Source: Lachnospiraceae bacterium
GTDB taxonomy: Bacteria; Bacillota; Clostridia; Lachnospirales; Lachnospiraceae
NCBI GenBank assembly: GCA_017453065.1
Contig: JAFTKW010000014.1
Span: 1 to 64,000 of the forward strand
Direction: 5' to 3'
DNA length: 64,000 nt
How positions within the stretch are numbered: the stretch's first letter is position 1; each line of letters starts with the position of its first letter. Of this stretch, positions 9,298-48,699 are shown in pieces. The notes under the pieces were generated by a model. The model saw only the letters and a program-made list of their open reading frames with translations. It did not search any database and was not told where the DNA came from. The translations under genes and the position numbers were made by a program.

Positions 9298-9765
9298 TTA
9301 TCGCATACGTATTTTGAACTCTTTTTCCACTTCTCTGCGCTGGTCTTTCTTGGCAGTTGCCTCACGTTTGTCGTAAAGTTTTTTACCTCTGGCAAGACCA
9401 ATCTGCATCTTTGCCCTTCCGTCCTTGAAGTATACCTGAAGTGGCACAATGGTAAATCCTTTTTCTGCCACTTTACCGGTCAGTTTCATAATCTCCGCCT
9501 TGTGGAGCAAGAGTTTTTTGATGCGAAGTGGATCTTTGTTGAATATATTACCCTGTTCGTATGGACTAACATGCATACCATAGACATAAACCTCTCCTTT
9601 TTCAATGCGGATAAAGGATTCCTTGATACTGCACTTGCCCATACGCATGGATTTAACCTCTGTGCCATGCAATTCAATGCCAGCCTCATAGGTCTCATCA
9701 ATGAAATAATCGTGGTAAGCCTTTTTGTTGTTGGCCACCAGCTTCATTCTTTCTTTTTCTGCCAT
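9298..9765 (-). CDS. smpB: SsrA-binding protein SmpB
   Basis: A 155-residue tmRNA-binding protein that delivers tmRNA to stalled ribosomes. It has the family features [11 protein letters not shown] and the ELHGTEVKS segment of the beta-barrel. The KFxxGK(K)LYDKR helix-forming region appears here as [15 protein letters not shown], followed by a basic tail. The ATG follows the rnr stop codon immediately, so it is translationally coupled to RNase R, and ssrA follows downstream. Length is normal. Confidence 0.96.
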
Positions 9766-14165: not shown

Positions 14166-14166
14166 C

Positions 14167-16323: not shown

Positions 16324-16326
16324 ATA

Positions 16327-17865
16327 TTAATCCTCCACGCCTCTTGTTGATGGGTTAAACGCATCACGAAGACCGTTACCAAACAAGTTAAATGAAATCA
16401 AAAGTAAAGCAAAGAACATCGCTGGGTAGAACATCGCATGAGGTGAAGATGTCATGGATGTCTGTCCCTGGCTCATGAGTGTACCAATACTTGTACCTGC
16501 CACGTCAGCCAAGTTAATGATGCCAAGATAAGTAAAGGATGTCTCAGAACCAATTACGCTAGGAATAATCAGTGCGCAGTTTGTAACAATTGTACCCAAT
16601 GCATTTGGGAAGATGTGTTTGAACATCAATCTCTTGTCGGATGCGCCAAGAGTACGAGCTGCAAATACAAATTCCTGACTCTTGAAACGATAGAACTGCT
16701 TACGTGTAAGGGCAGCCATACCAATCCAACCAGTGAGTACGAAGGCGAACAGGAAGGAGCCTACAGAGCCTACTTTCTGTGCCAAATGTAACTGGAACAA
16801 AATAGTTACAACAGTAAATGGCATACCACTCATAATATCTGTAATACGGTCCATTACAAGGTCAGTTGTTCCTCCATAGTAGCCCTGAATTGCACCATAT
16901 ACTGCACCAATTGAAAGGTTGATTGCGGATACTAAAATCGCAAAAATAAGTGAGAATCTAGCACCTACACCAATCGCAGTAAGAAGGTCCATACCCATAG
17001 AATTTGTACCAAAAATATAGGTAGGTTCTGTGCCATTTAAATATGTGTAATAGTTGTAATAACATACACGACACTGAACTGCACCAGATTTACGAACACT
17101 ATAAATATAGTCTCCGTTATCTCCTGCGATACGCAAACTGTTGTATTCTGCTCCTTCAATCTCTTTGTTTGTGGAATAAACTGGAACAAAGTTTCCATCT
17201 TTGTCAAGTTTAGCCGCACCCTTGTTGTCTACTTCATACCAAAGGTTTGGGTTGTCCTTAATATCGTTGATTGCTGAAGGCTCAACATAAGGATAAATCA
17301 CCTGAATACCAGTCTCATTCTGCCACTGCTGAATCTTTGCAAACTCTTCATAGGAGAATACCCTGTAAACTACACCAGTAGAATAATATTTATTGGCTTC
17401 AATTTTGTAAGAATATGTGGTTCTATCTTTGCCTCTATACTTAACAGTAGTTTCGGTGGTATCCAAAATCTTGACAAGTGGGTCATAGCCTGTCTCTAGA
17501 GCAATACCCTTCCAGAAATTCATCTGAGCTTCGTTCTGACTCTGATGAGTGATTGCACCATCAAGCACGCCCAAGTTCATTTCAGCAATAGGACGCCAAA
17601 ATGGTGGTGAATTGATAAATGTTGTATCCTTGTCGTACACCGAATATGGAGAAATAATCGGTGAAAAGAAGGAAAACAGCAAAAGAAATAAGAGGATATA
17701 TGCTGCAACTACAGAAGATTTGTTCTTCTTAAAACGAAGCATACAGTCAGCAAAATAACCTCTGGTCTTTGTATCAAATTTTGTGTCATGTATCTCCTTG
17801 TCCATCTGAGCGAACTCAAACATCTCAGGAGCAATGCGTTCATATTCCATATTATTATTCTGCAT
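16327..17865 (-). CDS. oppC: Oligopeptide ABC permease, OppC-type, with large outer domain
   Basis: A 512-residue permease; OppC is usually about 300. TM1 lies at about 52-73. A soluble region of about 210 residues (75-288), rich in Tyr and Asn, follows, which should lie outside the cell. Then come FGTNSMGMDLLTAIGVGA and the remaining five membrane helices. The ABC-coupling (EAA-like) loop reads AARTLGASDKRLMFKHIFPNA. It lies 4 bp from oppB and oppD. The extra outer domain is placed to contact the enlarged binding protein; that is inference. Confidence 0.92.
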   Translation of the reverse strand: MQNNNMEYERIAPEMFEFAQMDKEIHDTKFDTKTRGYFADCMLRFKKNKSSVVAAYILLFLLLFSFFSPIISPYSVYDKDTTFINSPPFWRPIAEMNLGVLDGAITHQSQNEAQMNFWKGIALETGYDPLVKILDTTETTVKYRGKDRTTYSYKIEANKYYSTGVVYRVFSYEEFAKIQQWQNETGIQVIYPYVEPSAINDIKDNPNLWYEVDNKGAAKLDKDGNFVPVYSTNKEIEGAEYNSLRIAGDNGDYIYSVRKSGAVQCRVCYYNYYTYLNGTEPTYIFGTNSMGMDLLTAIGVGARFSLIFAILVSAINLSIGAVYGAIQGYYGGTTDLVMDRITDIMSGMPFTVVTILFQLHLAQKVGSVGSFLFAFVLTGWIGMAALTRKQFYRFKSQEFVFAARTLGASDKRLMFKHIFPNALGTIVTNCALIIPSVIGSETSFTYLGIINLADVAGTSIGTLMSQGQTSMTSSPHAMFYPAMFFALLLISFNLFGNGLRDAFNPSTRGVED

Positions 17866-17868
17866 AGC

Positions 17869-18822
17869 TTATTTCCTCGATCCCATTCTGATTCGTGGGT
17901 CAATAAACCCGTAACTGATATCTATAACAATACCCAAAATAAGTGAAATAGAAATGCTGAATATTGTATAGAACATGAAAAGCGGATAGTCTCTACCATT
18001 GATAGAGTTCAAATACAAACTTCCTGTACCCGGAATCGCAAAAATTTTCTCAATAATCAGAGAACCACCCATAATACCAACAAATGCAGACATGATAGAT
18101 GGCAAAATAACTACCAAGCAATTCTTCAGGGCATGACGGACTGTCGCTTGTGCTTTGGTAAGACCTTTGGTACGAGCCAAAAGCATAAATTCACTGGTAA
18201 GTACCTCTGTAAGTTCGGCACGAGTTGTTCTGGTATAACCAGCTATCGTTCCCAACGAAAGGGAAATAATAGCAGGAACCATACTTACAAACATAGGCCA
18301 AGAAAAATAATCTGTACCCGACTTCATCAGAAATGGCAACCAGCCAAGTTTGTAGGACAAGAAATACTGTATCAAAAATGCATATACGAAAGAAGGTACG
18401 GATATGCATACCATAGTCGATGTTGAAATAAAATGATCAATCCATGTATTCTTCTTAAGTGCAGCTATGATACCCAAAATAATACCGATAGGAATACTGC
18501 CGATAGTAGAATAAAAATTGACAATCATAGAGGGCGGAAGTTTCGTAGTAAAAATTTTAATAACATCCTGACCAAAATACAGAACGTCGCTCACGCCCCA
18601 ATCCCATTTTGTAAAAATATCTCTCAAATAAATATAAAATTGCACAATATATGGCTTATTGTAACCCGCAGCTTCTCTTCTCGCTTCGATTACCGCTGTG
18701 TGTGGATCTCCAATCGGCAATTCTGCAGGGGGAAGCATTCTGACAAGTACAAAGCACATAAATGTGATGATAAGAAGTGACATCAACATAAGTGCAAATC
18801 TTTTTGCAGCATATTTACCCAT
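17869..18822 (-). CDS. oppB: Oligopeptide ABC permease, OppB-type
   Basis: A 317-residue permease of normal length with six membrane segments. The coupling loop reads LARTKGLTKAQATVRHALKN, and it ends in SYGFIDPRIRMG, the usual OppB/DppB terminus. It is the only subunit of this transporter without an obvious insertion. It follows oppA after a 141-bp gap containing a stable hairpin. Confidence 0.95.
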   Translation of the reverse strand: MGKYAAKRFALMLMSLLIITFMCFVLVRMLPPAELPIGDPHTAVIEARREAAGYNKPYIVQFYIYLRDIFTKWDWGVSDVLYFGQDVIKIFTTKLPPSMIVNFYSTIGSIPIGIILGIIAALKKNTWIDHFISTSTMVCISVPSFVYAFLIQYFLSYKLGWLPFLMKSGTDYFSWPMFVSMVPAIISLSLGTIAGYTRTTRAELTEVLTSEFMLLARTKGLTKAQATVRHALKNCLVVILPSIMSAFVGIMGGSLIIEKIFAIPGTGSLYLNSINGRDYPLFMFYTIFSISISLILGIVIDISYGFIDPRIRMGSRK

Positions 18823-18894
18823 AATTTTCCTCCAGCCTTATTTATGCTTGCCGATATTGTCAAACATAAATGAACATCTTTTTACGCAAACATT

Positions 18895-33744: not shown

Positions 33745-34410
33745 ATGTCTTTCTTTAAACCTAATTATAAACCAGCAAATGAAAGCTATCAATACCCCCT
33801 ATCTCGCTCCTTCCTGTACCCTGACATAGAGCTTGTTTGTGATGTGCATTTTTCTAACCGCAAGTCCATCACGATACAAATTAAAGAGGATTTGACCATT
33901 CACGTAAGGGCGCCACTCTATACGAAACCTAAGCAGGTCAATACTTTTATTGAAAGTCACAAATCCTGGATATATGAAAAATGGATTGCCTTAAAAGAAA
34001 AAATCCCAGTGAAGGAACCGCTCTCTCCATCAGAAATGAAACGTGCAGAGGCACTGGAACGCAAATTCCGAAAGGCTGCCAAAGAGTATATCCCATATAG
34101 AGTAGAATATTTCCATCAATTTACCGGTGGCAATTACACCTCTATCACTATTCGCGACCAAAAAAGTCGCTGGGGCAGTTGCTCTTCCAGAGGAACTCTC
34201 TCCTTTAATTATAGACTGATGATGGCCCCAACTCATATCCTAGACTATGTGGTGGTTCACGAGCTATGCCACCTAACACATATGAATCATTCCAAAGAGT
34301 TTTGGTCCATGGTGGAATCCATCATTCCGGATTACAAAGAATGTAAGAAGTGGCTAAAAGAGCATGGAAATGAGTTGTCTATTGAAGCCTATTTAGCGAA
34401 GTATAATTAA
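33745..34410 (+). CDS. YgjP/WLM-type metallopeptidase-like protein
   Basis: A 221-residue protein of the YgjP (DUF45) family. It has SRWGSCSSRGTLSFNYRLM and a C-terminal VVHELCHLTHMNHSKEFW with an HExxH zinc motif. The family is metallopeptidase-like; its cellular role is not settled. The ATG at 33745 is chosen for AAAAGGA upstream; a 25-residue upstream extension in frame lacks a ribosome site. It ends at a shared terminator. Confidence 0.9.
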   Translation: MSFFKPNYKPANESYQYPLSRSFLYPDIELVCDVHFSNRKSITIQIKEDLTIHVRAPLYTKPKQVNTFIESHKSWIYEKWIALKEKIPVKEPLSPSEMKRAEALERKFRKAAKEYIPYRVEYFHQFTGGNYTSITIRDQKSRWGSCSSRGTLSFNYRLMMAPTHILDYVVVHELCHLTHMNHSKEFWSMVESIIPDYKECKKWLKEHGNELSIEAYLAKYN

Positions 34411-34456
34411 AAACCTAGGTTGCTTTTCCTTAAAGAAAAAACAACCTAGGTTTTTT
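34408..34456. terminator. Bidirectional terminator
   Basis: A 13-bp stem AAAACCTAGGTTG/CAACCTAGGTTTT with a 19-nt loop and T runs on both strands. It ends the YgjP-type gene (plus) and the six-gene operon 34504-44241 (minus). Confidence 0.9.
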
Positions 34457-34503: not shown

Positions 34504-36834
34504 TTAGCGATTCTCATCCACATAGAGCTGAACTCTGTTTTGGATAATATCTACCACTTCGTCTACACTCTTTTGTCCAGAATAGAAACCTTCCACTTCC
34601 TCCTGAATGATATTGGTAATATCTTCATCATAGAAGTTGACTTTTGTTACAGAAGTTATAAAGTCATACAAGTCCTGAATCTCTTCCTGACTCATAGGCT
34701 CAAGAATAATGGACTCACCATTCATCCAGTAGGTGTATTCCTCTTCATGGACCTCGCCGTTTTCGTCGGTCCAAGTTGGTTTCTTGGTGGCTACCTCAGA
34801 TTTGCTCCACCAAGTTTCTATGTGAACTGGGAAATTATAAACTGTCTCTTGGTATTCTGGAGTCAAGTAGTAACGAAGGAATTCCCATGCGCCATCCTTT
34901 TCTGCCTTGGTTGTGATTGCATACTGGTTGCTTGCATAAATGTTAGAACCATTTCTGTCTTCCGTAGGATAACCAATGTAAACGATTGGCTCTCCAAACA
35001 TACCATGCTGATTGTAAACTAAGGAGTCAAAGCTATACACGCTCTGGTTTGCTGCCAAAGTAGTGCCATCTCTGTACTGTGTCTCATATTTGTTCCAGAT
35101 ATCTGGGTCATCATAGTTGATGTTTGCCTCCTCTGGAAGAGAAGCAACATAAGTCAGTACATCTTTAAAACTCTGTGAATTGAAGTTACATAATCCAGTA
35201 TTTAAATCAACATACTGAGTGAGACAATTGTTAATCAATGTATATCCCTGACTATTTCTATTTTCATCAAAGGCAAAGAATGATGTGCCTTCTGGCTTGG
35301 AGTTAAGAATCTCCATCGCCTCTTGCATAGTCCAACCAGTCATATCTCCCACGTCAGATTTCTTCACAACAACCGTGTTCACCTGGAACTGAGGAACAAT
35401 ACAGTAAAGCTCCCCATTTCTGCTGAAGGCTTCAAACACATTTGCAAAATAGTCTTCTCTATTTAACTCTGGATCATTGTCAATAAACTCATAAATATCA
35501 GCAAAGAGCCCCTTGGAAATATAACTCTCGATAGGCATATTCTGATCCAGAACCATCATATCTGGAATCTTACCAGCCAAGATGTCGTTGTTCAGTCTGG
35601 TATATCCAGCTGTGTAGTCTTCTTCTGTAGCATACTGGCTGTAATCTTCCACTGAAATTCTATAAAGTTCACTTGTCTTGTTAAAGTCAATGATTCTCTT
35701 TTTCAGTCTGCTGTCCATCCAATAACAAGCAATTGTCAATGCCTTTTTGTCTGGAATAGTAGATGGGTCCACATAATCAAACACGCCAATGCGAGTCATA
35801 TAATCCGTTGTATCATAGTAGGAACCCATAAACTGTGTATCACTGATTTCAATGAAATTGTTCACATCATAGCCTACAAAATCAGAATTAATATAGTTCA
35901 TCATCATTTTAGGCTCTGTCATCTCAGTATCGAAATCAAAGTAATAAAAACCTGTGTTAGATCTGGACAGCATTAAGTCATGGGTTTTGCTAGAATAGAA
36001 ACTGTAGTTATTCAAGCTAAATGGCAATTCAATTGCCTCTCCAATCACACCAGATTCTACATCATAGGGATGAATGTGTCTGGACATCCAGTCCTCGGTC
36101 CATTTAACAACATAAACCTGATTACCCTTGCCAACAAAGAAGTTGTTGACCATATCCATGCCTTCCACTTCGGCCTTTTTGATCAAATTTCCCTGTGAAT
36201 CATACAAAGAAAGAAAACCTGTATTGTCTTTTATTAACAGTTTTCCATCTGCCAGTGCAATAAAGGTATCTGCATAGTACCATTCTTCTGGCTTGGAAGG
36301 ATCATTGAGCTGAGTTTTAAAAAGCTTTTTCCCTTCTAAATCCCAGCCTACCAGATTGACCTCTCTTTGATACATTCCGTTTTCATCCATCTGTTCATAG
36401 TTTTCATAGTTCATAATTCCAAAGAAACCATGTTCTGTGAACTGAAGGTTATTGAAATAAGTGTATACATTACCTGTTCCTGATATTTGTTCCATCCCCT
36501 CGATTGGTGTAGAGTTCACACCAGTGCCATCCAAGTTCATGGTCTTAAGAGCATAGCTGGTATTGCTAAACCACATTTCCGTTTCTTCATCTATACCATA
36601 AGAATTTGTGGTCTCCACCATATAAACTTTACCATCCACATAACCGATGGCATTGAAGTTTACATCTCCATTATCGGACTGCTGCGCCACATAAATCTCA
36701 GTACTCTTATATACACCCTGCTTTACAGCCTCCATATCTACTCTATCTTGTTCACTTTCTTTACCACAGCCGGCCAGGGAAAGTATCATAACCATAGCCA
36801 GTCCAAGGCTAAGTATTCTCTTAAAATTGTTCAT
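34504..36834 (-). CDS. Lipoprotein: beta-propeller-like domain plus solute-binding domain
   Basis: A 776-residue surface lipoprotein with lipobox SLAGCG. The first half (about 40-350) is made of repeating short strands with aromatic/Asp motifs (FISLYDSQGNL-like, YVVKWTEDW), as in a beta-propeller. The second half (about 355-770) matches family-1 sugar-type binding proteins, with YTAGYTRLNNDILAGKIPDMMVLD and GAWEFLRYYLTPE. It is homologous to the protein at 41884-44241, with a similar C-terminus (VQLYVDE). It is the last gene of the operon. The ligand is unknown. The ATG at 36834 (six codons into the longest frame) has GAGGGA upstream. Confidence 0.82.
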   Translation of the reverse strand: MNNFKRILSLGLAMVMILSLAGCGKESEQDRVDMEAVKQGVYKSTEIYVAQQSDNGDVNFNAIGYVDGKVYMVETTNSYGIDEETEMWFSNTSYALKTMNLDGTGVNSTPIEGMEQISGTGNVYTYFNNLQFTEHGFFGIMNYENYEQMDENGMYQREVNLVGWDLEGKKLFKTQLNDPSKPEEWYYADTFIALADGKLLIKDNTGFLSLYDSQGNLIKKAEVEGMDMVNNFFVGKGNQVYVVKWTEDWMSRHIHPYDVESGVIGEAIELPFSLNNYSFYSSKTHDLMLSRSNTGFYYFDFDTEMTEPKMMMNYINSDFVGYDVNNFIEISDTQFMGSYYDTTDYMTRIGVFDYVDPSTIPDKKALTIACYWMDSRLKKRIIDFNKTSELYRISVEDYSQYATEEDYTAGYTRLNNDILAGKIPDMMVLDQNMPIESYISKGLFADIYEFIDNDPELNREDYFANVFEAFSRNGELYCIVPQFQVNTVVVKKSDVGDMTGWTMQEAMEILNSKPEGTSFFAFDENRNSQGYTLINNCLTQYVDLNTGLCNFNSQSFKDVLTYVASLPEEANINYDDPDIWNKYETQYRDGTTLAANQSVYSFDSLVYNQHGMFGEPIVYIGYPTEDRNGSNIYASNQYAITTKAEKDGAWEFLRYYLTPEYQETVYNFPVHIETWWSKSEVATKKPTWTDENGEVHEEEYTYWMNGESIILEPMSQEEIQDLYDFITSVTKVNFYDEDITNIIQEEVEGFYSGQKSVDEVVDIIQNRVQLYVDENR

Positions 36835-36854
36835 CCTTTTTCTCCCTCTCATTG

Positions 36855-38036
36855 CTATTTCTTGCCGTTCTTCTTTTTCTTAATTCTCTCTTTTCTGCTC
36901 TCCACCTTGATGACTCCAAGTCCATCAAATTCTTTGTCTTTCCTGCGTTCTTCTTTCTTCGCAAGTTTTTTTGCCCTCAGCTTTTCCAAGAAGCGCTCCC
37001 ATTTATCTTTTAGTTTCAAGTATACACTCTTGGAAGTCCATGTGCGTCTTACCCATGCTCTTCTCAAGGCAACTATCACCAAGACAAATGGATATAAGAA
37101 AAACAAAAGTGCTACAAACAAAAGGGTGGCTAATATATCTTCATAACCCCTAGCTACATTTTCCCAATAAGGATAAATAATTGCCTTGCCGTTCATGGAT
37201 CTGGTTCCAAACTCTCCAATGGTCTGAAGCAAAGAAATCAAACCATATCTGCTGGTGTTTTCTATGATTTCGCTTTCTGCTTCATCACTTGCCAATTCTT
37301 CTTTTACATAATTAAATGCAAAGTTTTTGACAGGGTTGGGCATTACGATCTCATAGCAACAGATAGAATTTGCACGGCCATAACTTACCAGCGTATTGTA
37401 TGAAACATAAACTACGGAGCTTTTCAGTCCCGCCGCCTCAGACAGTCTGTCCTGTTGTCTCTCTATTACACCAGTAATAATATGAGGCACGCCTTTGATT
37501 GTAATAATCTGACCAGCTATATCATTAGAGCCAAAAAGCTGCCAGGCTACCTCCTCATCTACTACACAATAATCCTGCATTACATCGTTTCCAGAAAAAT
37601 ATGCTCCTGATACCAGTTTCAGTGGATGGAATTGAAAAAACTCTCCGCCCACGCCTATGGCACTCACAGACACATTCTTGTCGCCACGTTCCAAGGTAAT
37701 GGTGCCTGTGGCACTGTAAGAGTCAATCCATAGTCTGGAATCTGGATTGGTGGAAGTATTCGTGATAGAAGCCTCCACCAATGCACTATCTAATCCGTGC
37801 TCAAAAAATAGGATTTCGTTCTCGGTCACTCCTCTATTTTCAGAAAAGAAAACACTGACCTGAGCCGCTCTATTTTCCTCTGAGTATGACCAGCGTTCTG
37901 CCATATTTTGAGTATCCTGTGCACCAGCCATGCATTTGATGACTAGCAAAAGAATGCCACAAATCAAGGCTGATATCAGACCACTGATGGAAACAAGCAG
38001 AAATGCAGGAGAAAGTCTCAATCTTCCTCTTTTCAT
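36855..38036 (-). CDS. MacB-like ectodomain membrane protein
   Basis: A 393-residue protein. TM1 is at about 12-35. An extracytoplasmic region (about 45-300) resembles the MacB periplasmic core, with VVDEEVAWQLFGSNDIAGQIITIKG and VSYNTLVSYG segments. TM2 is at about 312-335, followed by a highly basic Lys/Arg tail. Unlike true FtsX/MacB permeases it has two membrane helices, not four, and no MacB ATPase is encoded nearby. It follows the HlyD-like adaptor by 11 bp, as macB follows macA. It is an atypical member; function unknown. Confidence 0.72.
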   Translation of the reverse strand: MKRGRLRLSPAFLLVSISGLISALICGILLLVIKCMAGAQDTQNMAERWSYSEENRAAQVSVFFSENRGVTENEILFFEHGLDSALVEASITNTSTNPDSRLWIDSYSATGTITLERGDKNVSVSAIGVGGEFFQFHPLKLVSGAYFSGNDVMQDYCVVDEEVAWQLFGSNDIAGQIITIKGVPHIITGVIERQQDRLSEAAGLKSSVVYVSYNTLVSYGRANSICCYEIVMPNPVKNFAFNYVKEELASDEAESEIIENTSRYGLISLLQTIGEFGTRSMNGKAIIYPYWENVARGYEDILATLLFVALLFFLYPFVLVIVALRRAWVRRTWTSKSVYLKLKDKWERFLEKLRAKKLAKKEERRKDKEFDGLGVIKVESRKERIKKKKNGKK

Positions 38037-38047
38037 CTTGTTTCTCC

Positions 38048-39976
38048 TTAATCAGGCAGTCTTACAAGCTGTCCCTCTTCTACAGGTTTAGTTGCTGTTG
38101 TAATAACTGGTTCCCATCCGTAGATACCACCAGTAATGGCAGATTGTGTTTCATCAGATGCTACCACCTGCACATCTGCTCTCACTGCTTTGTATCGGTT
38201 GCCAAGTGGACTAGAGCTCTGTTCAACAATTAAAATAAACTTACCATTGTTGTCTTCTCTGATTGCACTGTTAGGAACAATCATGTCATAATTAGAGCTC
38301 TTCTGTCCAACAGAAAGGCTTAAGGATTGACCTGCTGTCAAATCGCCTTCCAGTTCAAAGGTCAGAAGTTTCTTCTTGGTTGGGTCAGATGTATCTGGTC
38401 TGATAGAAACCAGTTTTGCTGTGATATCATCATACCACCAGGAATTGTAAAGTTCAGCAGGATCTCCCACCGCTACTCTCTTTGCCTGTTCATTGGTAAC
38501 AGAGAAACTAAGTGTGAAGCCTTTTCCGGCTGGCTGAATTACTACAACTGGAGTATTTGGATCTGTGCTCTGTCCAGAGCTTACATTAACTGCAGTTACG
38601 CGGCCTGCCACTTCGGCTGTGATGGTTGCTCCCTGAGTCTTTGCCACAATCTCATCCACAATGGCCTGCTGTGCATCAATGGCAACCACATGCTCACTCA
38701 TAGCCTTCTCTGTATCAATCTGGCTCATCAAGACAGAATATTCTTGCTGTTTGTCAGCCAGATTCTTCTGGTGTACTGATAGATTGTACTGTGCAGTTGC
38801 CAACTGATTCTGTAAGTTGGTTACAGTTGCACTTGCATTGGCATTGGCACTCTGTACCTGAAGTTTCGCTACCTCAAGTTCATTTTCTCTGGTTACCACC
38901 AAGGCTTCGTATTTCTCTATATTCGCTGTTGCGGTATCCACCTTATTTTGTGCATTGGTTACCGCTGTCTCTGCTGCTGTTTTTTCATTGGTTAATTTAG
39001 TCACGTTTGTAGTCGCAGTATTTAAGGCAGTCTGAGCTGTGGAAAGTTCTGATTGAGCAGTAGTTAATAATCCCTTCTTTGTGCTCAACGTTTCCTGTGC
39101 AGCTTGAAGTGCCGCCAAAGCATCCGCTTCTTCCTGTGTGCCTGCTCCTTGTAATGCATCGTAGTTAGCCTGCGCAGCATCTACCGCCGCCTGTGCTGTA
39201 TCTACTTCTCCCTGGGCATTGGTCACTGCCTGAGCTTTTTCATCCACCAATGTCTGTGCACTAGCCTGCTCGCCTTGAGCGGTAGTAAGAGCATCTGTCT
39301 TAGCAGTCAAATTGGTCTGTGCATTAGCAAGCGCTGTGTCTGCTGCAGGTTTGTTTACCGTTTCTTCTTTCAAAAGAGCAGCCTTGGCATCTGCAAGTGC
39401 TTTTTCCTGTGCTGCTGTAGAATAAGTCACACCACTCATGGAAATCTGTGATGTCAAAGCATCTACCCAAGTCTGTGCCTCTTCCACTTTTACTTCCAGT
39501 TCATCTATTTCTTTAAGTAAACTCTGTGTCTTTTTAGAAAAAGTTTCCTGAGAAGTAAATTTGCCATTCTGCATATTCTTCAAAAGTGTAGCATCACTTA
39601 TTTTCAAAAGAGCCGCATCTCGATTATTTTTAAGTACTGTCAAGGCAGCTAAGGCATCCTTCAGTTCCTGGCTCTCAGTATCCTCCAAAACCATCAGGAT
39701 ATCTCCCTTTTGTACATTGCTGCCAACTCTCACTTCTACGCTGGCAACTTTACGGCTTTCTTTCACTTCCACCATATATGGATCGCCGCTCTCTACCGTG
39801 CCAGTACCTCTAATCTTGGCAGTGATAGTGCCTGAAGTAATATACTGCGTTGCCACCTCTGGCAGAGAATAATTCATAATTGTATTTGAAAAGAAGGTCA
39901 GCACCAGCATAACTGACAAAAAGACTATAGCAGCGCTTTTGACCCACTCTCTTTTCTTTCTATTTTCTTCGTTCAT
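38048..39976 (-). CDS. HlyD/MacA-type adaptor with very long coiled-coil hairpin
   Basis: A 642-residue membrane-fusion-type protein. A signal anchor at about 13-32 is followed by the first lipoyl half (GTGTVESGDPYMVEV, VEVRVGSNVQKGDILMVLED). An Ala/Gln/Thr-rich coiled coil spans about 110-440, and the second lipoyl half reads ITAEVAGRVTAVNVSSGQS. A beta-barrel and membrane-proximal domain follow. MacA coiled coils are about a third of this length. In a Gram-positive there is no outer membrane to span, so the hairpin presumably crosses the wall; that is inference. It lies between sugar permeases and a MacB-like gene. Confidence 0.85.
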   Translation of the reverse strand: MNEENRKKREWVKSAAIVFLSVMLVLTFFSNTIMNYSLPEVATQYITSGTITAKIRGTGTVESGDPYMVEVKESRKVASVEVRVGSNVQKGDILMVLEDTESQELKDALAALTVLKNNRDAALLKISDATLLKNMQNGKFTSQETFSKKTQSLLKEIDELEVKVEEAQTWVDALTSQISMSGVTYSTAAQEKALADAKAALLKEETVNKPAADTALANAQTNLTAKTDALTTAQGEQASAQTLVDEKAQAVTNAQGEVDTAQAAVDAAQANYDALQGAGTQEEADALAALQAAQETLSTKKGLLTTAQSELSTAQTALNTATTNVTKLTNEKTAAETAVTNAQNKVDTATANIEKYEALVVTRENELEVAKLQVQSANANASATVTNLQNQLATAQYNLSVHQKNLADKQQEYSVLMSQIDTEKAMSEHVVAIDAQQAIVDEIVAKTQGATITAEVAGRVTAVNVSSGQSTDPNTPVVVIQPAGKGFTLSFSVTNEQAKRVAVGDPAELYNSWWYDDITAKLVSIRPDTSDPTKKKLLTFELEGDLTAGQSLSLSVGQKSSNYDMIVPNSAIREDNNGKFILIVEQSSSPLGNRYKAVRADVQVVASDETQSAITGGIYGWEPVITTATKPVEEGQLVRLPD

Positions 39977-39991
39977 CTCTCTATCCTCCTG

Positions 39992-40945
39992 TTAGCCCTT
40001 AATTCCGCCTTGGTAAGTAATACCTTCGATAAGATATTCTTCACCATACAAAAATACAAACAACGTTGGAATCATGTATATGGTCGCTACCGCAAACGCT
40101 AGACCAATTTCGCCGGAATTAATCTTGCTTAAAAATACGGACAACGGATGCATTTCCGAATCCGAAAGCAAAATAAGTGGCTGTTCAACCATGTTCCAAT
40201 AATCAATAAATACCAAAATTGCCGCGGAGCAAAGGGCGCCTTTGCAAAGTGGCATACAAACCAGTCTAAATATCTGTATCTCTCCCGCTCCATCAATCTG
40301 AGCCGCCTCTATCACAGAATTGGGTATTCGTCTCATAAACTTAGTAAGCAGGAATACCGCAAATGGCGAAAAGATACCGGGAAGCCATATAGCCCATTTG
40401 GTATCCAATATATTCAGCCAATCTGACACTAGATAGTTTGGCACCAAAGTTACCTGATAAGGCATCAACATCAAAATGATATATGCAAAAAAGATAATCT
40501 CTCTCAATCTTCCTCTATATCTAGTAAACCCATAGGCTGCCAGAGAAGCCACCAAAAGCTGGAAAAAGACAATTGGTCCCACCAATATCACAGAGTTCCA
40601 GAACTTTAGCAAATACTCTGGACTTTTGAACAATACCGTAATGTACTGCCCAAAGGAAACCATATCAGGAATAAATTTTAGGTTTACTTTTTCTGAAATA
40701 TAAACCTTTCCTCCCGTTTCTGTAGTCGCAAAAACGGTTCCATAGTTGGAGGAAATCTCCGCCTGTGTCATAAAGGAATTTGTGATTGTAAGTACAATAG
40801 GTGTCAAGAACAATATTGCAAAGAAAGCCGCCAGTACAGTTAAAAATACAATATTGGCTTTAGAAAGTGCTTTCTTTCGACTATGCTTTCTCTTTGCTTT
40901 GTTCGCCAGCATTTCTGCTGGAGTAAGTAATACATTCTTTCTCAT
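39992..40945 (-). CDS. Sugar-type ABC permease, MalG-like
   Basis: A 317-residue permease with six membrane helices and the coupling loop VIEAAQIDGAGEIQIFRLVCMP. It has the MalG-type C-terminus YLIEGITYQGGIKG. Residues about 60-95 form an enlarged outer loop. It overlaps the next permease gene by 4 bp. No ATPase is encoded in the operon, so a shared MsmX/UgpC-type ATPase elsewhere would be needed; this is common in Firmicutes. Confidence 0.92.
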   Translation of the reverse strand: MRKNVLLTPAEMLANKAKRKHSRKKALSKANIVFLTVLAAFFAILFLTPIVLTITNSFMTQAEISSNYGTVFATTETGGKVYISEKVNLKFIPDMVSFGQYITVLFKSPEYLLKFWNSVILVGPIVFFQLLVASLAAYGFTRYRGRLREIIFFAYIILMLMPYQVTLVPNYLVSDWLNILDTKWAIWLPGIFSPFAVFLLTKFMRRIPNSVIEAAQIDGAGEIQIFRLVCMPLCKGALCSAAILVFIDYWNMVEQPLILLSDSEMHPLSVFLSKINSGEIGLAFAVATIYMIPTLFVFLYGEEYLIEGITYQGGIKG

Positions 40946-41856
40946 CCTTCCACATCCTTTCCGTAGATACCCTCTACTAAGAACATGATACCGATGAGCA
41001 CTATCATAACCAAGGACATAAGAATCGCCGCCGCAGAAAGTTTCTGGTAATCCAGAGACTTAAACATGTTGTTCATAAAATGCTGCATCATGTATAACGT
41101 GTCGTATGGTCTGTCTCCCGTCAAAAGATACACCTCTCTAAATACCTTGAAGGAGTTGATCAGTGACATAATCGTTACAAACAAAATTGTGGAGGACAAA
41201 TATCTCATTTTTATGTAGAAAAAGGTTTGCAGAGGTGATGCACTTTCCAGCTTCGCCACTTCAATAATGTCCTTCGGAATACTTGCCAAGGCAGCCATAA
41301 AAAGAATCATATTGTATCCTAAGTTCTTCCACAAAAACAAGATGACTACCACAATCTGTGAATATTGAGACTTCATCCAGTCAATTTTTCCACCGCCTAG
41401 AGCAATCAATACCTCATTCACTGCTCCATTGTAGTGGAACAACACCTGCCATATTAATACGATAGACGCCACTGGAACCATCATTGGACTCAAGAAAAAG
41501 GTTCTGAACTGACTTCTAAAGGGAAGTTTGCGCTCCAAAATAATGGCAAGTAACAATGACAAAACAACCGCCAGCGGAACGGATACTGCTGAAAACTTCA
41601 GCGTATTGATAGCCGCTTTTTTGAAGGCAGCATTTTTAAGAACCATCTGAAAGTTCTTCAAAAATACAAAGTCTCCACTCAGCGGATTGTCAATCATAGA
41701 ATAATAAATGACTACAATAAACGGAATTACAAAAAAGACCAGAACGCCAAGAAAGCTAGGGGTTAAAAATAACCCCGAGCTTCTCTTTTCCTTTTTTAAC
41801 TTCTTTGAAAGCTTACGCCGTATACTTAATTTCTTTTTTTCTTTTAAGGCATTCAA
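40942..41856 (-). CDS. Sugar-type ABC permease, MalF-like
   Basis: A 304-residue permease. A Lys/Arg-rich N-terminus (about 1-28) precedes six membrane helices. The coupling loop reads IEVAKLESASPLQTFFYIKM. It is the partner of the MalG-like gene, whose start overlaps its 3' end by 4 bp (ATGA-type coupling). It follows the lipoprotein gene 41884-44241 after 27 bp. Confidence 0.92.
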   Translation of the reverse strand: MNALKEKKKLSIRRKLSKKLKKEKRSSGLFLTPSFLGVLVFFVIPFIVVIYYSMIDNPLSGDFVFLKNFQMVLKNAAFKKAAINTLKFSAVSVPLAVVLSLLLAIILERKLPFRSQFRTFFLSPMMVPVASIVLIWQVLFHYNGAVNEVLIALGGGKIDWMKSQYSQIVVVILFLWKNLGYNMILFMAALASIPKDIIEVAKLESASPLQTFFYIKMRYLSSTILFVTIMSLINSFKVFREVYLLTGDRPYDTLYMMQHFMNNMFKSLDYQKLSAAAILMSLVMIVLIGIMFLVEGIYGKDVEG

Positions 41857-41883
41857 TTTTGAAAGCCCTCCTTATGCTAATCA

Positions 41884-44241
41884 CTATCTAGTCTCATCTA
41901 CATAGAGCTGAATACGGCCCTGAATAACCTCTGCACACTCTGCCGCAGACTTAGCTCCTGCAAAGAATGGCTCTGCTTCTTCCTGAATAATCGCAATCAG
42001 CTGTGTGTCGTAGGACATCAGTGTGGTGGTAGAATTAATCAATTCCATCATATTGTCTACCTGCTCCTGTGTGGCTGCATAGATATAGTACATATCATTG
42101 CTGTTACCCCAGCCATACCCACCTTTGTCATACTGCATTGGCTCTCCATTTTCATCGTACTGGATTTCTCCATTTTCATCGTACATATAGTTTGGCACCA
42201 TTGCTTCATCCATCATAGCCTGCAGACTGGATTTCAGGCTAGGGAAACTCCAGGAATACATCTCGTTTGGAGAAGAAATATATTCCTCTAAGAAAGCCCA
42301 TGCTGCTTCTTTGTTCTTTGAACCTGTACAGATGGCAATTGCATCGGTTCCTTGCATGATGGCACCGTTGCTACCACTGCTATTTGGAAACCCGATACAG
42401 GTGATAGGGCCGCCAAAAATTTCCTCTGTTACCAGATAGTTTCCTGTATCATACATGCTAAGATTGGTCAACATAATCTTGTTTTCTTTGACCAATTCTG
42501 GCCAAGATGGAGCATCTTCATCATATGTCATCTCTGCTGGATAATCTTTGACCAATTCCAATACACCCAAAAATTCCTCACTGGTGAAGTTACACTCTCC
42601 AGTCTCCCAATTAATGTAATCATTTAAACTACCCATGAGAAGTATCTGAAGCAAATATGTTCTGCTCATTTCTTCCATAATCTTGGAACCTTCAGGCATG
42701 TTCTTTGCTGTTTCAAGCATCTCTTCCATAGTCCAGCCCATCTCATCTCCAACCACAGAGCTTGGTCCTACTAATGTCTCGATCGCAAAAGAGGTTGGTA
42801 TTGCAACAAGCTTGTCATTCATAGTGTATGCCTTCAGTACAGATTCCACAATATCCTCTTTGCTAATCTTTGTACTCTTTTCCAGATAAGGATTCAAATC
42901 CTCAAACATTCCCTTTGCAGCAAAAAGCTGTGTGTTCATTGAAGGATCCAGTGCAAGCAAATCAACAGAGTTACCTGTAAGAATGTCATTGTTCATACGG
43001 GTGATCATATCATTGTAAGCCTGCTCCCAATCCGTAACATCTTCGGAATTGTATAGTTCCTCAGCATAGTCCTTTATATTGATACGATATTCTGCGCTAG
43101 ATTTATTGAATTTTATGATAGAAGTTTGCAAACTTTGTGAAACTCCCATACAGCCTAAAGAAATAATGGTCTTTTGAGGCACTTCAGAGGATGGAGTTTT
43201 GGTCAACAGCACTACTCCTTCTTCATTGGTAGACCAATCACGATAGTATACAAAAATTCGACCATCTGACATTGGTGCAATAATATCTGCGTAATCGCCC
43301 TGCACATCACAATCCATCAGTGAAAGTAATTTCTCACTAGTCTGTGTTTCAATATCATATTCATAGATATCGCTACTTGCCTTAAGCAAGAAATCCTCGT
43401 TCAAGCCAGGCATTGGTGAATCATAGAAGCTCATTGGCAAGTTTTTAAGTGCCTCTCCCAAACTCTTAGTCTGCATATCTACCTTTTTCATGACAACCGA
43501 TCCAGATGTGCTGTCATGAAAACTGATATAGAGATCTCCATCTTTGGATCTTCCCATTCCGTTCAGCCAAGAACCTATAGGGGCTGTAAAAAGGAAATTA
43601 CCATCCTTATCAAATGCCCAGATTACCTGTTCGCCATCAGACAAAACTACATTTCCGTTAATATCAGATTCCATGTACTGAATATATATTCCATACTCGC
43701 TAGACACATTGGACATGTGCTGTGTCATATCATTTCGAAATACCACATTGCCAGTTGCATCTACTTTAATCAATTCGAATACAGGATTGTTATAATCATA
43801 TTCCATGTAGGAATAGCCATTCTCTTCTACCATTCCAAGTTCTTTGTATGTAGCATTCAGCATCATCAGACCGCCGTCGTCTGTAATGATGGTTTTCATG
43901 ACATTGTTTAATTCTAACCCATCTATATTAATCTCTAATTTGACAGGTTCAATTTTTTCTGCTTTCGCATCCAGTGAATAATATGTATTTTGATACATAG
44001 CCGCTTCTGGATCGTACTCATTTACACAATAATATAAGGTATCATTTGTAAACTGAATTACCTCTGTATAACCATTCTCTGTTCCCTTTGGCAGAGTCAC
44101 ATAAGAAGGCACGTATACATATTCAGGTGTATCTCCATTTACTGTATCCTGTTCTCCACAACCCACTACCCCAACAAGCATAGTCATAGACAATACAATC
44201 GCAATGAATTTTGTAACGATTTTTCTAGTTGATTTCTTCAT
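41884..44241 (-). CDS. Lipoprotein: beta-propeller-like domain plus solute-binding domain (second copy)
   Basis: A 785-residue homologue of the protein at 34504-36834 with the same two-part layout. It has lipobox VGVVGCG and propeller-like strands (GNVVLSDGEQVIWAFDKDG, about 205-225). A family-1 binding domain follows from about 375, with YNDMITRMNNDILTGNSVDL and KEAAWAFLEEYISSP. The C-terminal helix ends VIQGRIQLYVDE. It is the first gene of the operon, behind promoter 44304-44331. It probably serves the two following permeases; the ligand is unknown. Confidence 0.83.
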   Translation of the reverse strand: MKKSTRKIVTKFIAIVLSMTMLVGVVGCGEQDTVNGDTPEYVYVPSYVTLPKGTENGYTEVIQFTNDTLYYCVNEYDPEAAMYQNTYYSLDAKAEKIEPVKLEINIDGLELNNVMKTIITDDGGLMMLNATYKELGMVEENGYSYMEYDYNNPVFELIKVDATGNVVFRNDMTQHMSNVSSEYGIYIQYMESDINGNVVLSDGEQVIWAFDKDGNFLFTAPIGSWLNGMGRSKDGDLYISFHDSTSGSVVMKKVDMQTKSLGEALKNLPMSFYDSPMPGLNEDFLLKASSDIYEYDIETQTSEKLLSLMDCDVQGDYADIIAPMSDGRIFVYYRDWSTNEEGVVLLTKTPSSEVPQKTIISLGCMGVSQSLQTSIIKFNKSSAEYRINIKDYAEELYNSEDVTDWEQAYNDMITRMNNDILTGNSVDLLALDPSMNTQLFAAKGMFEDLNPYLEKSTKISKEDIVESVLKAYTMNDKLVAIPTSFAIETLVGPSSVVGDEMGWTMEEMLETAKNMPEGSKIMEEMSRTYLLQILLMGSLNDYINWETGECNFTSEEFLGVLELVKDYPAEMTYDEDAPSWPELVKENKIMLTNLSMYDTGNYLVTEEIFGGPITCIGFPNSSGSNGAIMQGTDAIAICTGSKNKEAAWAFLEEYISSPNEMYSWSFPSLKSSLQAMMDEAMVPNYMYDENGEIQYDENGEPMQYDKGGYGWGNSNDMYYIYAATQEQVDNMMELINSTTTLMSYDTQLIAIIQEEAEPFFAGAKSAAECAEVIQGRIQLYVDETR

Positions 44242-44303: not shown

Positions 44304-44331
44304 ATTATAGCACTTACAAGCCTATTGTCAT
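44304..44331 (-). promoter_or_regulatory. Promoter of the 34504-44241 operon
   Basis: On the minus strand there is ATGACA (44326-44331), a 16-bp spacer and TATAAT (44304-44309), about 63 bp before the first start codon and after the upstream terminator. Confidence 0.65.
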
Positions 44332-45458: not shown

Positions 45459-46382
45459 TTAGTTTAAAAATGCCTCCACGATTACTGCTTCTGCTTCCTC
45501 CTCTGACAGTCCCAGTGTTTGCAGCTTCATCAACTGGTCGCTGTTGATACGTCCGATAGCCGCTTCATGGATGATTGCTGCGTCAATATGGTTCGCATCA
45601 ATTTCAGGAATGGAAATTACTCTCGCATGATCCATAATAATGGAATCACACTGTATATGTGCATGGCAGCCTGCATTGCCGATTGCCCTTGGGTGGAATG
45701 ACTGTACAGACGTATCCTTTGCTACAGATCGTGAAATAATCTGTGCGCTGCTGTCTGTTCCCTCCAAAGTCACGTCCACATTGGAAATCGCAGTCTGCTG
45801 ATCGTGGGTCATAAGTTTCTCGGTCGCAATCAATTTACTTCCTGCGCCCAAATGAATTTCGGTCTCTCTCTTGGTGGAATCTACACCTTCAATCTGAGTA
45901 GACTCTAAAAAGAATACTGCACCTTCATCCAAGAAAATTCTTGTCACAGGATTTAGCACTTTGGCTCCAGTTCCTTCTCCTTCACCATAATGCTTTTCCG
46001 TATAAGTAACACTAGCTCCTGCACCTACATGGAAGGTGTGAATGCCATCGTGTCTAGTCTCATCGCATCCAGAGTTGTGGATTCCACAACCTGCAATAAT
46101 CTTTACATTGGCACCAGCCTCAATGAAGAATTCATTGTAAACCTTATCTGTCATGCCAGACTGAGACACCACCACAGGAATATGCACTGTTTCTCCCTGT
46201 GCTCCGTTACTAATGAAGACATCTATTCCCTGTACATCTTCTTTTCTTTTAATCTTGATATGCTCTGAATCTCCATGACAAAGGGCTGTGCCGTTGTATC
46301 TGAGATTGTAAGCTCCTTCTTCCTTAAATCCTTCTGAATCAATGATTCCAAGGACCTTGTCTGTAATTGAATCGTAAGCCAT
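45459..46382 (-). CDS. SufB/SufD-family Fe-S assembly protein
   Basis: A 307-residue protein of the SufBD beta-helix family, shorter than E. coli SufB (about 495). The C-terminal region reads AHIQCDSIIMD and IHEAAIGRINSDQ, matching the SufB Cys-containing CDS motif and its His-Glu pair, so it looks more like a SufB scaffold than SufD. It follows the sufC gene by 12 bp. No sufS, sufU or sufD lies nearby, so this is a minimal two-gene SUF arrangement. Confidence 0.87.
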   Translation of the reverse strand: MAYDSITDKVLGIIDSEGFKEEGAYNLRYNGTALCHGDSEHIKIKRKEDVQGIDVFISNGAQGETVHIPVVVSQSGMTDKVYNEFFIEAGANVKIIAGCGIHNSGCDETRHDGIHTFHVGAGASVTYTEKHYGEGEGTGAKVLNPVTRIFLDEGAVFFLESTQIEGVDSTKRETEIHLGAGSKLIATEKLMTHDQQTAISNVDVTLEGTDSSAQIISRSVAKDTSVQSFHPRAIGNAGCHAHIQCDSIIMDHARVISIPEIDANHIDAAIIHEAAIGRINSDQLMKLQTLGLSEEEAEAVIVEAFLN

Positions 46383-46394
46383 GTCCTTTTCCTC

Positions 46395-47129
46395 CTATTG
46401 ATGAATCTGATGTCTTTCCAGGCATCCTTTGGTCTGACGAACACCAGAAAGTCTTGGCATAACCTCATCCTTCGTGCCGATACAGTCAATCCCACCATCT
46501 TTGAGAAGCAAAATTCGATCTGCCATCTCAATCAATCGCTCCTGGTGTGAAATAATAATAATACTCTGCTCTTTGTCTTGACGAATCTCTTCAAAACGCT
46601 TCACCAGCATAGAAAAGCTCCACAGATCAATACCAGCCTCTGGTTCATCAAAAATACAAATCTTGTGTTTACCTGCTAAAACGGTGGCAATCTCAATACG
46701 CTTCATTTCGCCACCAGACAAAGTTGCATCTGCTTGGCGATTTAGGTACTCTCTCGCACACAGGCCCACGCCACTTAATAGATCACAACACTCTTTTTCG
46801 GGAAGTTTTCTACCTGCAGCAAGACTGAGTAATCTTTCCACTGTCATTCCTTTAAATCTAGCAGGCTGCTGGAATGCATAGCCTATGCCTGCTTTGGCTC
46901 TGGAATCAATAGAGAAATCTGTGATATCTTCACCTTCCAGAAAAATATGGCCACTTGTGGCCTTCTCAATTCCCATCAGCACCTTTGCCAATGTAGATTT
47001 ACCACTGCCATTTGGCCCTGTGATAATTAACAACTCACCCTTTTTTACCTGGAAGCTTACATTGCCAAGAATATTCTTCTTGCCACCTTCTTCCAGCACG
47101 TCAAAGGTCAGATTTTGAACTTTTAACAT
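46395..47129 (-). CDS. sufC: Fe-S assembly ATPase SufC
   Basis: A 244-residue ABC-type ATPase. It has Walker A GPNGSGKST, Q-loop FQQPARFKG, signature LSGGEMKRIE, Walker B CIFDEPEAGID and H-loop ISHQ, the typical SufC sequence. It powers the SufB-type scaffold encoded next. The ATG at 47129 is used: it comes 1 bp after the GH43 stop, and an upstream extension would lie in the GH43 gene. The tight spacing couples it to the glycosidase gene, an unusual partner. Confidence 0.94.
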   Translation of the reverse strand: MLKVQNLTFDVLEEGGKKNILGNVSFQVKKGELLIITGPNGSGKSTLAKVLMGIEKATSGHIFLEGEDITDFSIDSRAKAGIGYAFQQPARFKGMTVERLLSLAAGRKLPEKECCDLLSGVGLCAREYLNRQADATLSGGEMKRIEIATVLAGKHKICIFDEPEAGIDLWSFSMLVKRFEEIRQDKEQSIIIISHQERLIEMADRILLLKDGGIDCIGTKDEVMPRLSGVRQTKGCLERHQIHQ

Positions 47130-47130
47130 G

Positions 47131-48699
47131 TTAAATCTCCTCAAAAGACACCCAACCGCTTTCGCCCTGTTCATTTGCCTCGGCGTAAGCAGCCAATATC
47201 ACACCTGTAAAGCCTTCCACCACTTCGCTGGTAAGAAGCTTGGCCTCGATCTGTCCCAATTCCTCCCATTTACCATTTACCTGTAAGTAGCCTGCATAGG
47301 ATTGGTGTCTTGTTTCTATCTTTAAATTTAGCTTGGTCTGCTCATCGGACAGTGTCACGTCTTGATTGCCAAGTGGGGCTACCAATCCACCAATCACCAG
47401 TTTACAGGTCACCGTTCCTTGGCGATTCGATATTTTTTCCACTTGTAAATCAAAGTAATCCGTTTCTGTCATATATGCAGTCATGCCGACTTTTTGTCCA
47501 ACTAGCATTGTACCACAATCTAGCGAAAGTGCAAAGGTTGTTTCAAACTCTCTCTGACGCATTCCTACAAAGGTAACATCTCCAAGACTATTTAGAGTAT
47601 CCGTCGTACCATACAGCTTGAACTGACCTTTTTTAAGACCTTTTGCTAGGCATGGTTTTAAGTAAACACATTTTGTTTCCTCTTCCATCAAACATAGTTG
47701 ATATTTGCCAAAATCTGGGCAACGGAGGAATATGGCTTCCTCTGGTCTAATGCTCCATTTCTCTGTAGGATAATCCGCTGTCATATAAGAGGCAATTTTG
47801 CCATCTGTCACTTCATAAGCCGCTCTACATGTTCCATCTGTTCCTACTCTAAACCATCCATCCTCTGTCCATGTAATTGGAACAAGGAATGTTTCTCTTC
47901 CCATTTGATGAAATGGTCTCCAGCGGTCCATCTGACGGAATGCCAAATGCACCATCCACCACTGACCATTTTCACCTTCTACAATATCAGCATGCCCAGA
48001 ACCTTGGATAAAATATCCACCTAAATTGCGATTGGTTAAAATCGGATTCCATGGGCACATTTCGTAAGGGCCATAGATATCCTTACTGCGATGCAGACAC
48101 TCCATATGTCCATATTCCGTGCCACCCTCAGCCGCTAACAAGTAATAGTACTCACCAATCTTGTATAGATGAGGTCCCTCGAGGTATCTGCCGCCTGTTC
48201 CCTGAGAAATCAGTTTACTTTCTGTCAAAAGTTTGCCTGTTTCAATATCCATCTCACACACAAGCACACCTTCTCGGCCGCTTCCATCATCTCCATTGGA
48301 GATAAAATATACCTTGTCCTCATCAAAAAGAAGAGATGGATCGATACCAGGCCTATCAAGCAAAATAGGCTCCGACCACTCTCCTTCTATATCATCTGTA
48401 TATACCATGAAGTTCCCATAGCCACCCACATTGGTACAAACTACGTAAAATCTGCCCTTGTGATAACGAATCGTAGGAGCAAAAATACCGCCCGAAGCAC
48501 CCATCTTCGTCAAATCAAGCTGGCTCTTTCTGGTCATACAGTATCCTACAGTTTCCCAATCCACTAGATTTGCACTTCGAAAAACGGGGATTCCAGGAAA
48601 AAATTGAAATGTACTACATACTAAATAATAATACCCTTCTGCATAACAAATGCTAGGGTCCGGATAAAAACCTCTAATAACTGGATTTGTATATTTCAT
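47131..48699 (-). CDS. Glycoside hydrolase family 43 (xylosidase/arabinofuranosidase type)
   Basis: A 522-residue cytoplasmic enzyme without signal peptide. The five-bladed propeller begins NPVIRGFYPDPSICY, with the catalytic-base Asp in that motif. The general acid is probably in YLEGPHLYKIGEYYYL. A C-terminal beta-sandwich (about 320-520), as in GH43 beta-xylosidases, follows. The likely substrates are short xylo- or arabino-oligosaccharides taken up from plant fibre. The ATG at 48699 has GGAGG upstream; the longer frame needs a TTG start. No sugar transporter gene is adjacent. Confidence 0.92.
   Translation of the reverse strand: MKYTNPVIRGFYPDPSICYAEGYYYLVCSTFQFFPGIPVFRSANLVDWETVGYCMTRKSQLDLTKMGASGGIFAPTIRYHKGRFYVVCTNVGGYGNFMVYTDDIEGEWSEPILLDRPGIDPSLLFDEDKVYFISNGDDGSGREGVLVCEMDIETGKLLTESKLISQGTGGRYLEGPHLYKIGEYYYLLAAEGGTEYGHMECLHRSKDIYGPYEMCPWNPILTNRNLGGYFIQGSGHADIVEGENGQWWMVHLAFRQMDRWRPFHQMGRETFLVPITWTEDGWFRVGTDGTCRAAYEVTDGKIASYMTADYPTEKWSIRPEEAIFLRCPDFGKYQLCLMEEETKCVYLKPCLAKGLKKGQFKLYGTTDTLNSLGDVTFVGMRQREFETTFALSLDCGTMLVGQKVGMTAYMTETDYFDLQVEKISNRQGTVTCKLVIGGLVAPLGNQDVTLSDEQTKLNLKIETRHQSYAGYLQVNGKWEELGQIEAKLLTSEVVEGFTGVILAAYAEANEQGESGWVSFEEI

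Follow-up and report, generated by a model that had tools for sequence, protein, structure and literature searches.

How do the parts of a sugar importer come to share an operon with the parts of an efflux pump, and what could such a set of proteins do when no ATPase is encoded with them? The question is raised by six genes of a Lachnospiraceae bacterium (GenBank assembly GCA_017453065.1), which lie in a 64,000-nucleotide stretch of contig JAFTKW010000014.1, referred to here as the window. A sequence-only reading of the window proposed that the six encode a sensory or uptake complex spanning the envelope. Comparison with other genomes suggests that this gene set, found in many gut Lachnospiraceae and some of their relatives, specifies an undescribed uptake or sensing machine that would reach into the cell wall. 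To our knowledge, membrane fusion adaptors are known from export only. If true, conserved importers with an export-type adaptor would change the picture of uptake through a thick wall, and a single meaning could be given to widespread gut Lachnospiraceae operons that match separate efflux and sugar-transport families. The sequence-only reading knew of no described system with this set, and none was found in the titles and opening abstract lines of the open-access literature, which was queried mostly with several terms at once and leaves subscription papers largely outside. In the portion available, PMC11559062 deals with an ordinary MacAB-like exporter and not with the six-gene set.

The operon and its products

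The six open reading frames (ORFs) on the minus strand span positions 34504-44241, with intergenic gaps of 27, -4, 15, 11, and 2 nt (Table 1). The operon proposed earlier is real by its ORF positions, gaps, and Pfam matches, and the conservation of the gene set in relatives rules out a chance cluster or a dead operon. It had also been given one promoter and one terminator. The promoter-like site agrees with the consensus at 11 of 12 positions and ranks first among 31 such sites in the region, a number close to the 27.8 expected by chance; it is a good site, but its identity as a promoter is that of a consensus match. A convergent gene faces the terminator-like stem, and a single transcript across the six genes is predicted. 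No conserved DNA motif could be read from an alignment of the 25 upstream regions listed, out of 56, together with that of the window. Two other kinds of element were considered and rejected: an RNA element, as the scan of the window gave a tmRNA only, and a defence system, as PADLOC gave just one coiled-coil match, for the adaptor.

Table 1. Features of the operon and its flanks in the window
Feature	Position	Strand	Description
SBP_A	41884..44241	-	785-aa lipoprotein; N-terminal propeller-like region and SBP_bac_1 domain
MalF-like permease	40942..41856	-	TTG start; EAA loop EVAKLESA
MalG-like permease	39992..40945	-	canonical EAA loop EAAQIDGA; marker of the adaptor-linked clade
MacA/HlyD-type membrane fusion adaptor	38048..39976	-	642 aa; anchor, lipoyl halves with a 343-residue stretch between them, beta-barrel, membrane-proximal region
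MacB-like protein	36855..38036	-	393 aa; helix, MacB periplasmic core domain, helix, basic tail; lacks an ATPase domain
SBP_B, propeller-SBP lipoprotein	34504..36852	-	782 aa as listed; probable start at an ATG 18 nt inside the ORF
Promoter-like site	44304..44331	-	ATGACA-16-TATAAT with TG before the -10; consensus match only
Terminator-like stem	34409..34455	-	20 pairs and a T run; downstream of the operon

The end genes encode the solute-binding protein (SBP) lipoproteins that had been claimed: both match the sugar-binding families SBP_bac_1 and SBP_bac_8 above the cut-offs, and the nearest solved SBPs bind sugars. When a profile of the SBPs was compared with solved structures, sugar SBPs matched positions 377-766 (best CbpC, E 2.4e-35), and residues 411-783 of SBP_A matched CbpC as well (E 6.4e-10). 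The propeller is a weaker case. Solved propeller proteins match the profile within positions 91-281 (E 2.7e-7 to 0.009, with no single stretch passing alone), which faintly suggests that the N-terminal half is the propeller described in the sequence-only reading. In another locus (L198:7199-8557), a gene between MalF and MalG encodes a 452-aa protein that weakly matches NHL/propeller families, much as though the propeller existed there as a subunit of its own.

Both permeases belong to BPD_transp_1 and carry EAA loops, of which that of MalG is canonical and that of MalF altered. Related loci are referred to below as Type I, the set to which the window's operon belongs, or as a second type, which is more distant. 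The D and G of the MalG loop are kept in 96 of 96 sequences. In Type I MalF, a serine replaces the usual EAA glycine in 78/91, so coupling may be altered. Type I MalF also keeps P, F, K, and R near the loop in 91/91.

The adaptor has the features of the membrane fusion (HlyD/MacA) family, namely an N-terminal anchor, a split lipoyl domain, a hairpin, and a beta-barrel. HlyD_3 and Biotin_lipoyl_2 match over their cut-offs, RND_mfp matches below its own, and solved relatives of MacA and HlyD match as well. The stretch between the two lipoyl halves, read earlier as about 330 residues of coiled coil, measures 343 residues. In 99 Type I adaptors, this distance ranges from 148 to 482 residues (median 262). 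For comparison, the accessible part of PMC5768738 describes a Gram-positive MacAB pump in which a hexameric adaptor tube sits on the transporter, with a modelled distance of about 154 A from membrane to tip and a hairpin barrel of 56 A. If helical throughout, the hairpin of the window would be much longer than the one in that pump.

The MacB-like protein matches MacB_PCD, and Pfam gave no ABC domain in any of the six proteins. Hydropathy places the MacB periplasmic core domain between exactly two predicted membrane helices, as the sequence-only reading had it. The same was seen in 27/27 Type I proteins, while 14/16 second-type proteins have 3-5 hydropathy segments; a profile comparison joins the two types (probability 99.0 over 137 columns). 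The operon resembles a MacAB-type (Type VII) exporter in having a MacA-family adaptor next to a MacB periplasmic core domain and differs from it in having no MacB-type ATPase, fused or adjacent. The four helices of the exporter are missing in Type I, and the second type may have that number. The available text of PMC5673888 places MacB's coupling helices between TM2 and TM3 and at the C-terminus. With only two helices, Type I proteins could not serve as the known kind of MacB motor. A working exporter half is unlikely, as the MacB-like protein has no ATPase and, in Type I, is also without the helices that flank the coupling helices. This argument is weaker for the second type because of its 3-5 segments. 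Second-type proteins carry a conserved P..WSD motif, which in L155 falls between the second and third predicted segments; since MacB has a coupling helix at that place, the second-type protein may contact an ATPase. Type I has a candidate contact site in YPYWEN, a nearly invariant motif that precedes the second helix by about 12 residues.

Conservation in other genomes

A relative of the MacB-like protein was found at E 3e-23 or better in 21 of 200 genomes of the family, its own included. The order MalF-MalG-adaptor-MacB-like on one strand recurs in 18 of 20 family loci, which is 18/18 of those with room on the contig; in the other two, the contig stops at the adaptor. A scan with one genome per species then gave at least 502 relatives among at least 596 candidate stretches, of which the best 80 were kept. 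These come mostly from Lachnospiraceae, including the isolates Acetatifactor muris and Lachnotalea glycerini, with a few metagenome-assembled genomes labelled as other groups (e.g., L060 and L087). Among these best 80 of at least 502, loci with room have the adaptor in 78/78, MalG in 75/75, MalF in 71/72, an SBP upstream in 58/63, and an SBP downstream in 66/67. One Type I operon is otherwise complete and has no MalF (L111:6621-7049). The recurring neighbours of Type I operons look like housekeeping genes by eye and are common to close relatives, so none was accepted as a further partner.

The co-occurrence of the six genes in other genomes is borne out by these counts. In addition, the proteins appear to have diverged together. 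Over 88 loci, the pairwise distances of MalG correlate with those of MacB2 at 0.88, with those of the last 200 residues of the adaptor at 0.82, and with those of MalF at 0.83, and correlations among all four lie between 0.80 and 0.89, as values taken with no species-tree control. The frame-split adaptor of L056 was left out, since with it the adaptor/MalG value is only 0.43, and distances for the adaptor N-terminus are unreliable (r 0.29-0.36, with an outlier, the probably mis-cut L102, at 2.79). Of 20 ordinary MalFG operons, none was found to have an adaptor, in line with the earlier remark that import and export parts do not normally share an operon. In the MalG tree, 80 rows of the adaptor clade separate from the 20 ordinary controls with 100/100 support. 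Because the rows were chosen by similarity, this split is partly built in; the adaptor linkage is not. The gene content and distances show that the adaptor is encoded with MalF and MalG and diverges along with them, as for the most part does the MacB-like protein.

The second type came from a MalG search of the 200 genomes, which brought up a group with identities of about 40% and below; weak MacB matches lie next to many of its members. The 51 loci taken, down to about 136 bits, include two that are Type I (L173 and L174), leaving 49, one of which ends right after MalG (L176). The usual order is SBP-MalF-MalG-adaptor-MacB-like. Together with loci that have a reduced adaptor, the second type has an adaptor beside MalFG in 47 of 48 Lachnospiraceae loci with room. 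The exception, L203, has a 370-aa protein in the adaptor's place (9673-10785), with no Pfam match and, by eye, an adaptor-like N-terminal anchor. In the wider phylum, MalG of the adaptor clade was found at E 1e-75 or better in 8 of 398 genomes, its own included, across five families. The adaptor is present in 5/5 loci of other families, four of which, from two families, have the order MalF-MalG-adaptor-MacB-MalK-SBP with a kinase and regulator nearby (L214-L217). The fifth, from a further family, runs SBP-SBP-adaptor-MacB-MalF-MalG to the contig end (L213).

In some loci, parts of the set are missing. Seven have mini-adaptors of 206-253 aa, which have no hairpin and keep the anchor and the membrane-proximal domain (their C-terminal part aligns with full adaptors over 99 columns, hhalign probability 98.7). 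Among those with room, no MacB-like gene was recognised in five of six, and the sixth has a weak one. By contrast, a MacB-like gene accompanies 40/45 adaptors longer than 300 aa (Fisher p 0.0006). Four of the five hairpin-adaptor loci without it form one MalG subclade. On the MalG tree, loss of the hairpin and loss of MacB each need at least three changes, the MacB-loss set including L173, which ends at a contig end, and L203. The gene content points to an adaptor that follows MalFG rather than MacB, and to a MacB-like protein that tends to follow the hairpin. The refuting condition set in the sequence-only reading, that the adaptor and MacB-like genes move independently of the permeases, was not borne out for Type I, where linkage is nearly total; the MacB-like gene is more loosely tied and is missing beside some second-type adaptors. 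Loci that lack the hairpin, the MacB-like gene, or both still have the adaptor with MalFG, which points to an importer that has the adaptor as a subunit. These natural variants without hairpin, MacB-like protein, or propeller also make a modular design directly testable. The same-genus relative of the window's genome (G022) has a second, mini system in the order SBP-mini-adaptor-MalF-MalG (L199:2720-6613).

The sequence-only reading also had the adaptor holding the binding proteins across the wall. Propeller-sized SBPs accompany 35/35 adaptors longer than 430 aa and 3/13 shorter ones, in a table of 48 of 56 rows (L158, L160, L173, L174, L176, L191, L201, and L203 have no recognised adaptor or SBP). 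The 430-aa threshold was picked after the fact, and at 300 aa the table becomes 35/6 vs 3/4 (p 0.027). The MalG tree holds only about two independent propeller losses. Because of the post hoc threshold and the few independent events, the association is a hint of such a role and no more.

Source of ATP and neighbouring genes

The absence of an ATPase holds for the window's operon but not for all relatives of that operon. A MalK-type ATPase directly follows the MacB-like gene in two Type I loci of another family (L146 and L147) and follows MalG in L172 and L194, where the L172 protein matches ABC_tran, OB_MalK, and TOBE_2. Elsewhere in the genome, an MsmX-like ATPase was found in 12/12 named genomes, with 79-96% identity to that of a relative. 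This is the pattern expected for multitask ATPases (PMC7658222), and an operon with no ATPase is ordinary for importers that use a shared one of the MsmX type. The MalK-type genes in some relatives' operons and the MsmX-like genes of the 12 genomes mostly explain the absence, the latter as permissive evidence, because MsmX-like ATPases may be common to the whole family. The MsmX-like ATPase is partial in G022 (100% complete) and G120, and at named-genome level it was not found in G029 (93% complete) or in the genome that contains the window (84.7% complete). That genome encodes a PotA-like ATPase and, next to other importers, two MalK-like ones; its TOBE_2 match was rejected as MsmX, being the PotA-like gene.

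An ATPase of the exporter kind was looked for as well. In none of 160 loci, nor in the window, did a motif scan place a short ABC ATPase immediately next to the MacB-like gene of an adaptor-importer system. In the window, the nearest one, at 46395-47174, lies beyond the terminator and another gene, and its best match, SufC, is below the cut-off. Two loci have a complete ordinary MacAB pump, with ATPase, HlyD adaptor, and MacB/FtsX permease, downstream of the Type I operon (L034:12228-15835 and L124:12325-16020).

Regulatory genes divide the two types. A histidine kinase and an OmpR-type regulator were found within 8.5 kb of MalG in 28/49 second-type and mini loci by profiles built from five of these 28. 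The same scan found kinases near MalG in 2/106 Type I loci, 4/5 loci of other families, and 0/20 ordinary controls, and regulators in 3/106, 4/5, and 1/20, with neither in the window; control stretches were 8-12 kb long, against up to 20 kb for the others. Pfam identified HisKA, HATPase_c, Response_reg, and Trans_reg_C in example genes, and the kinase is on the opposite strand in 23/50. The second-type operon is probably under the control of its own, cognate two-component pair of the OmpR type.

Operon neighbours also differ from those of ordinary operons. There, the most frequent families among 57 neighbours in 17 of 20 operons (25 of 81 families listed) include glycosidase families 2, 3, 31, and 88, AraC-type regulators, and GDSL esterases, with 2-3 proteins each. 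Beside the adaptor systems, 64 of 77 neighbours (25 of 103 families listed) gave single glycosidase matches only, with no common theme and no recurring sugar-catabolic genes among the families listed. This makes simple nutrient uptake a weaker candidate for the role, and sensing, or the scavenging of material from the envelope, would still fit.

Possible workings of the system

The set would rather likely be a Type I (MalFGK-like) binding-protein-dependent importer in which a MacA-family adaptor is a fixed extra subunit, probably for oligosaccharide-like ligands. ATP would come from a MalK- or MsmX-type ATPase docking on the EAA loops of MalFG. The anchor and membrane-proximal domain of the adaptor would sit on or beside MalFG, and the ATPase-less MacB-like protein, at least in Type I, would be a passive platform for the adaptor ring. 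The long hairpin would reach into the wall, where the large propeller-SBP lipoproteins would capture the ligand, positioned for delivery. Like the Type I carbohydrate importers (MalFGK2, UgpAE, and the Firmicutes MsmX systems), the system has SBP lipoproteins, EAA-loop MalF and MalG, and, in relatives, a MalK- or MsmX-type ATPase in the operon or elsewhere. Unlike them, it includes a membrane fusion adaptor as well as a MacB-like protein with no ATPase, its SBPs carry an extra propeller-like region, MalF of the Type I set has an altered EAA loop, and its neighbours hold no recurring sugar-catabolic genes. A bolder form of this proposal, possible though short of probable, is that these are the first membrane fusion adaptors devoted to import or sensing. 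In it, MalFG and an inert MacB-like base would carry an adaptor hexamer, whose hairpin tube would cross the Gram-positive wall with the SBP propellers docked to it, and ligand caught in the outer wall would be passed to the permease. The hairpin, the MacB-like protein, and the propeller would together make up a single outer module that is optional, and the mini-systems would have it in reduced form or not at all.

The sequence-only reading left the choice between uptake and sensing open. Uptake is backed by the permease families, the EAA loop of MalG, and the MalK-type ATPases of sister operons; sensing is backed indirectly, by the two-component genes of the second type. BceAB, an ABC transporter, signals to BceRS. 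By analogy, the SBPs, MalFG, and adaptor might serve mainly to detect either a ligand or the condition of the wall, and to signal to a two-component system; we regard this as rather unlikely. Kinase and regulator genes beside an ABC system are shared with BceAB-BceRS in the second type, and the lack of recurring catabolic neighbours fits a sensor too. However, the system here has importer-type permeases and an SBP, the window's operon and nearly all Type I loci have no two-component pair, and the intact MalG loop and sister-operon ATPases imply transport work. The pair may simply control expression of the transporter, and in L214-L216 it may instead belong to neighbouring D-Ala-D-Ala genes.

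Another way to account for the mixture is that two machines share the operon, an importer and a MacAB-like exporter powered by an ATPase encoded elsewhere, which is improbable and disfavoured. The adaptor and MacB-like protein are true MacA and MacB homologues, and in Gram-positive bacteria the ATPase of a MacB-type permease can be a separate protein, Spr0693-Spr0694-Spr0695 being an example (PMC5768738, in the part available). MacAB pumps, including that one, share with the window's operon the anchor, lipoyl, hairpin, barrel, and membrane-proximal regions of the adaptor and the adjoining MacB periplasmic core. The pump of the related genomes L034 and L124, whose ATPase lies about 1.2 kb downstream behind another gene, could lend that ATPase; yet it has its own adaptor and full MacB/FtsX permease, and none of the 160 loci puts one directly beside the system's own MacB-like gene. 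The two helices of Type I, against four in MacAB pumps, leave the coupling helices without their usual flanks. Here the adaptor is tied to MalFG and remains so where the hairpin or the MacB partner is lost, and in the incomplete genome of the window no further protein passes the family cut-off for MacB_PCD. Mere linkage, through hitch-hiking or co-regulation with no shared function, is hardly credible, since the association holds across a deeply diverged MalG clade, five families, and varied flanks, and since hairpin, MacB-like gene, and propeller are lost around a conserved pairing of adaptor and MalFG.

Two further gene groups were seen near these operons. In the window, a SufC-like ATPase and a SufB/SufD-like gene, both below the cut-offs, lie at 45459-47174 and are possibly a minimal iron-sulphur assembly pair. 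Beside the operon of L216, genes for a D-Ala-D-Ala ligase, a VanW-like protein, and a D-Ala-D-Ala dipeptidase (13585-18865) form a set like that of vancomycin resistance, and L215 has a D-Ala-D-Ala carboxypeptidase gene near its operon.
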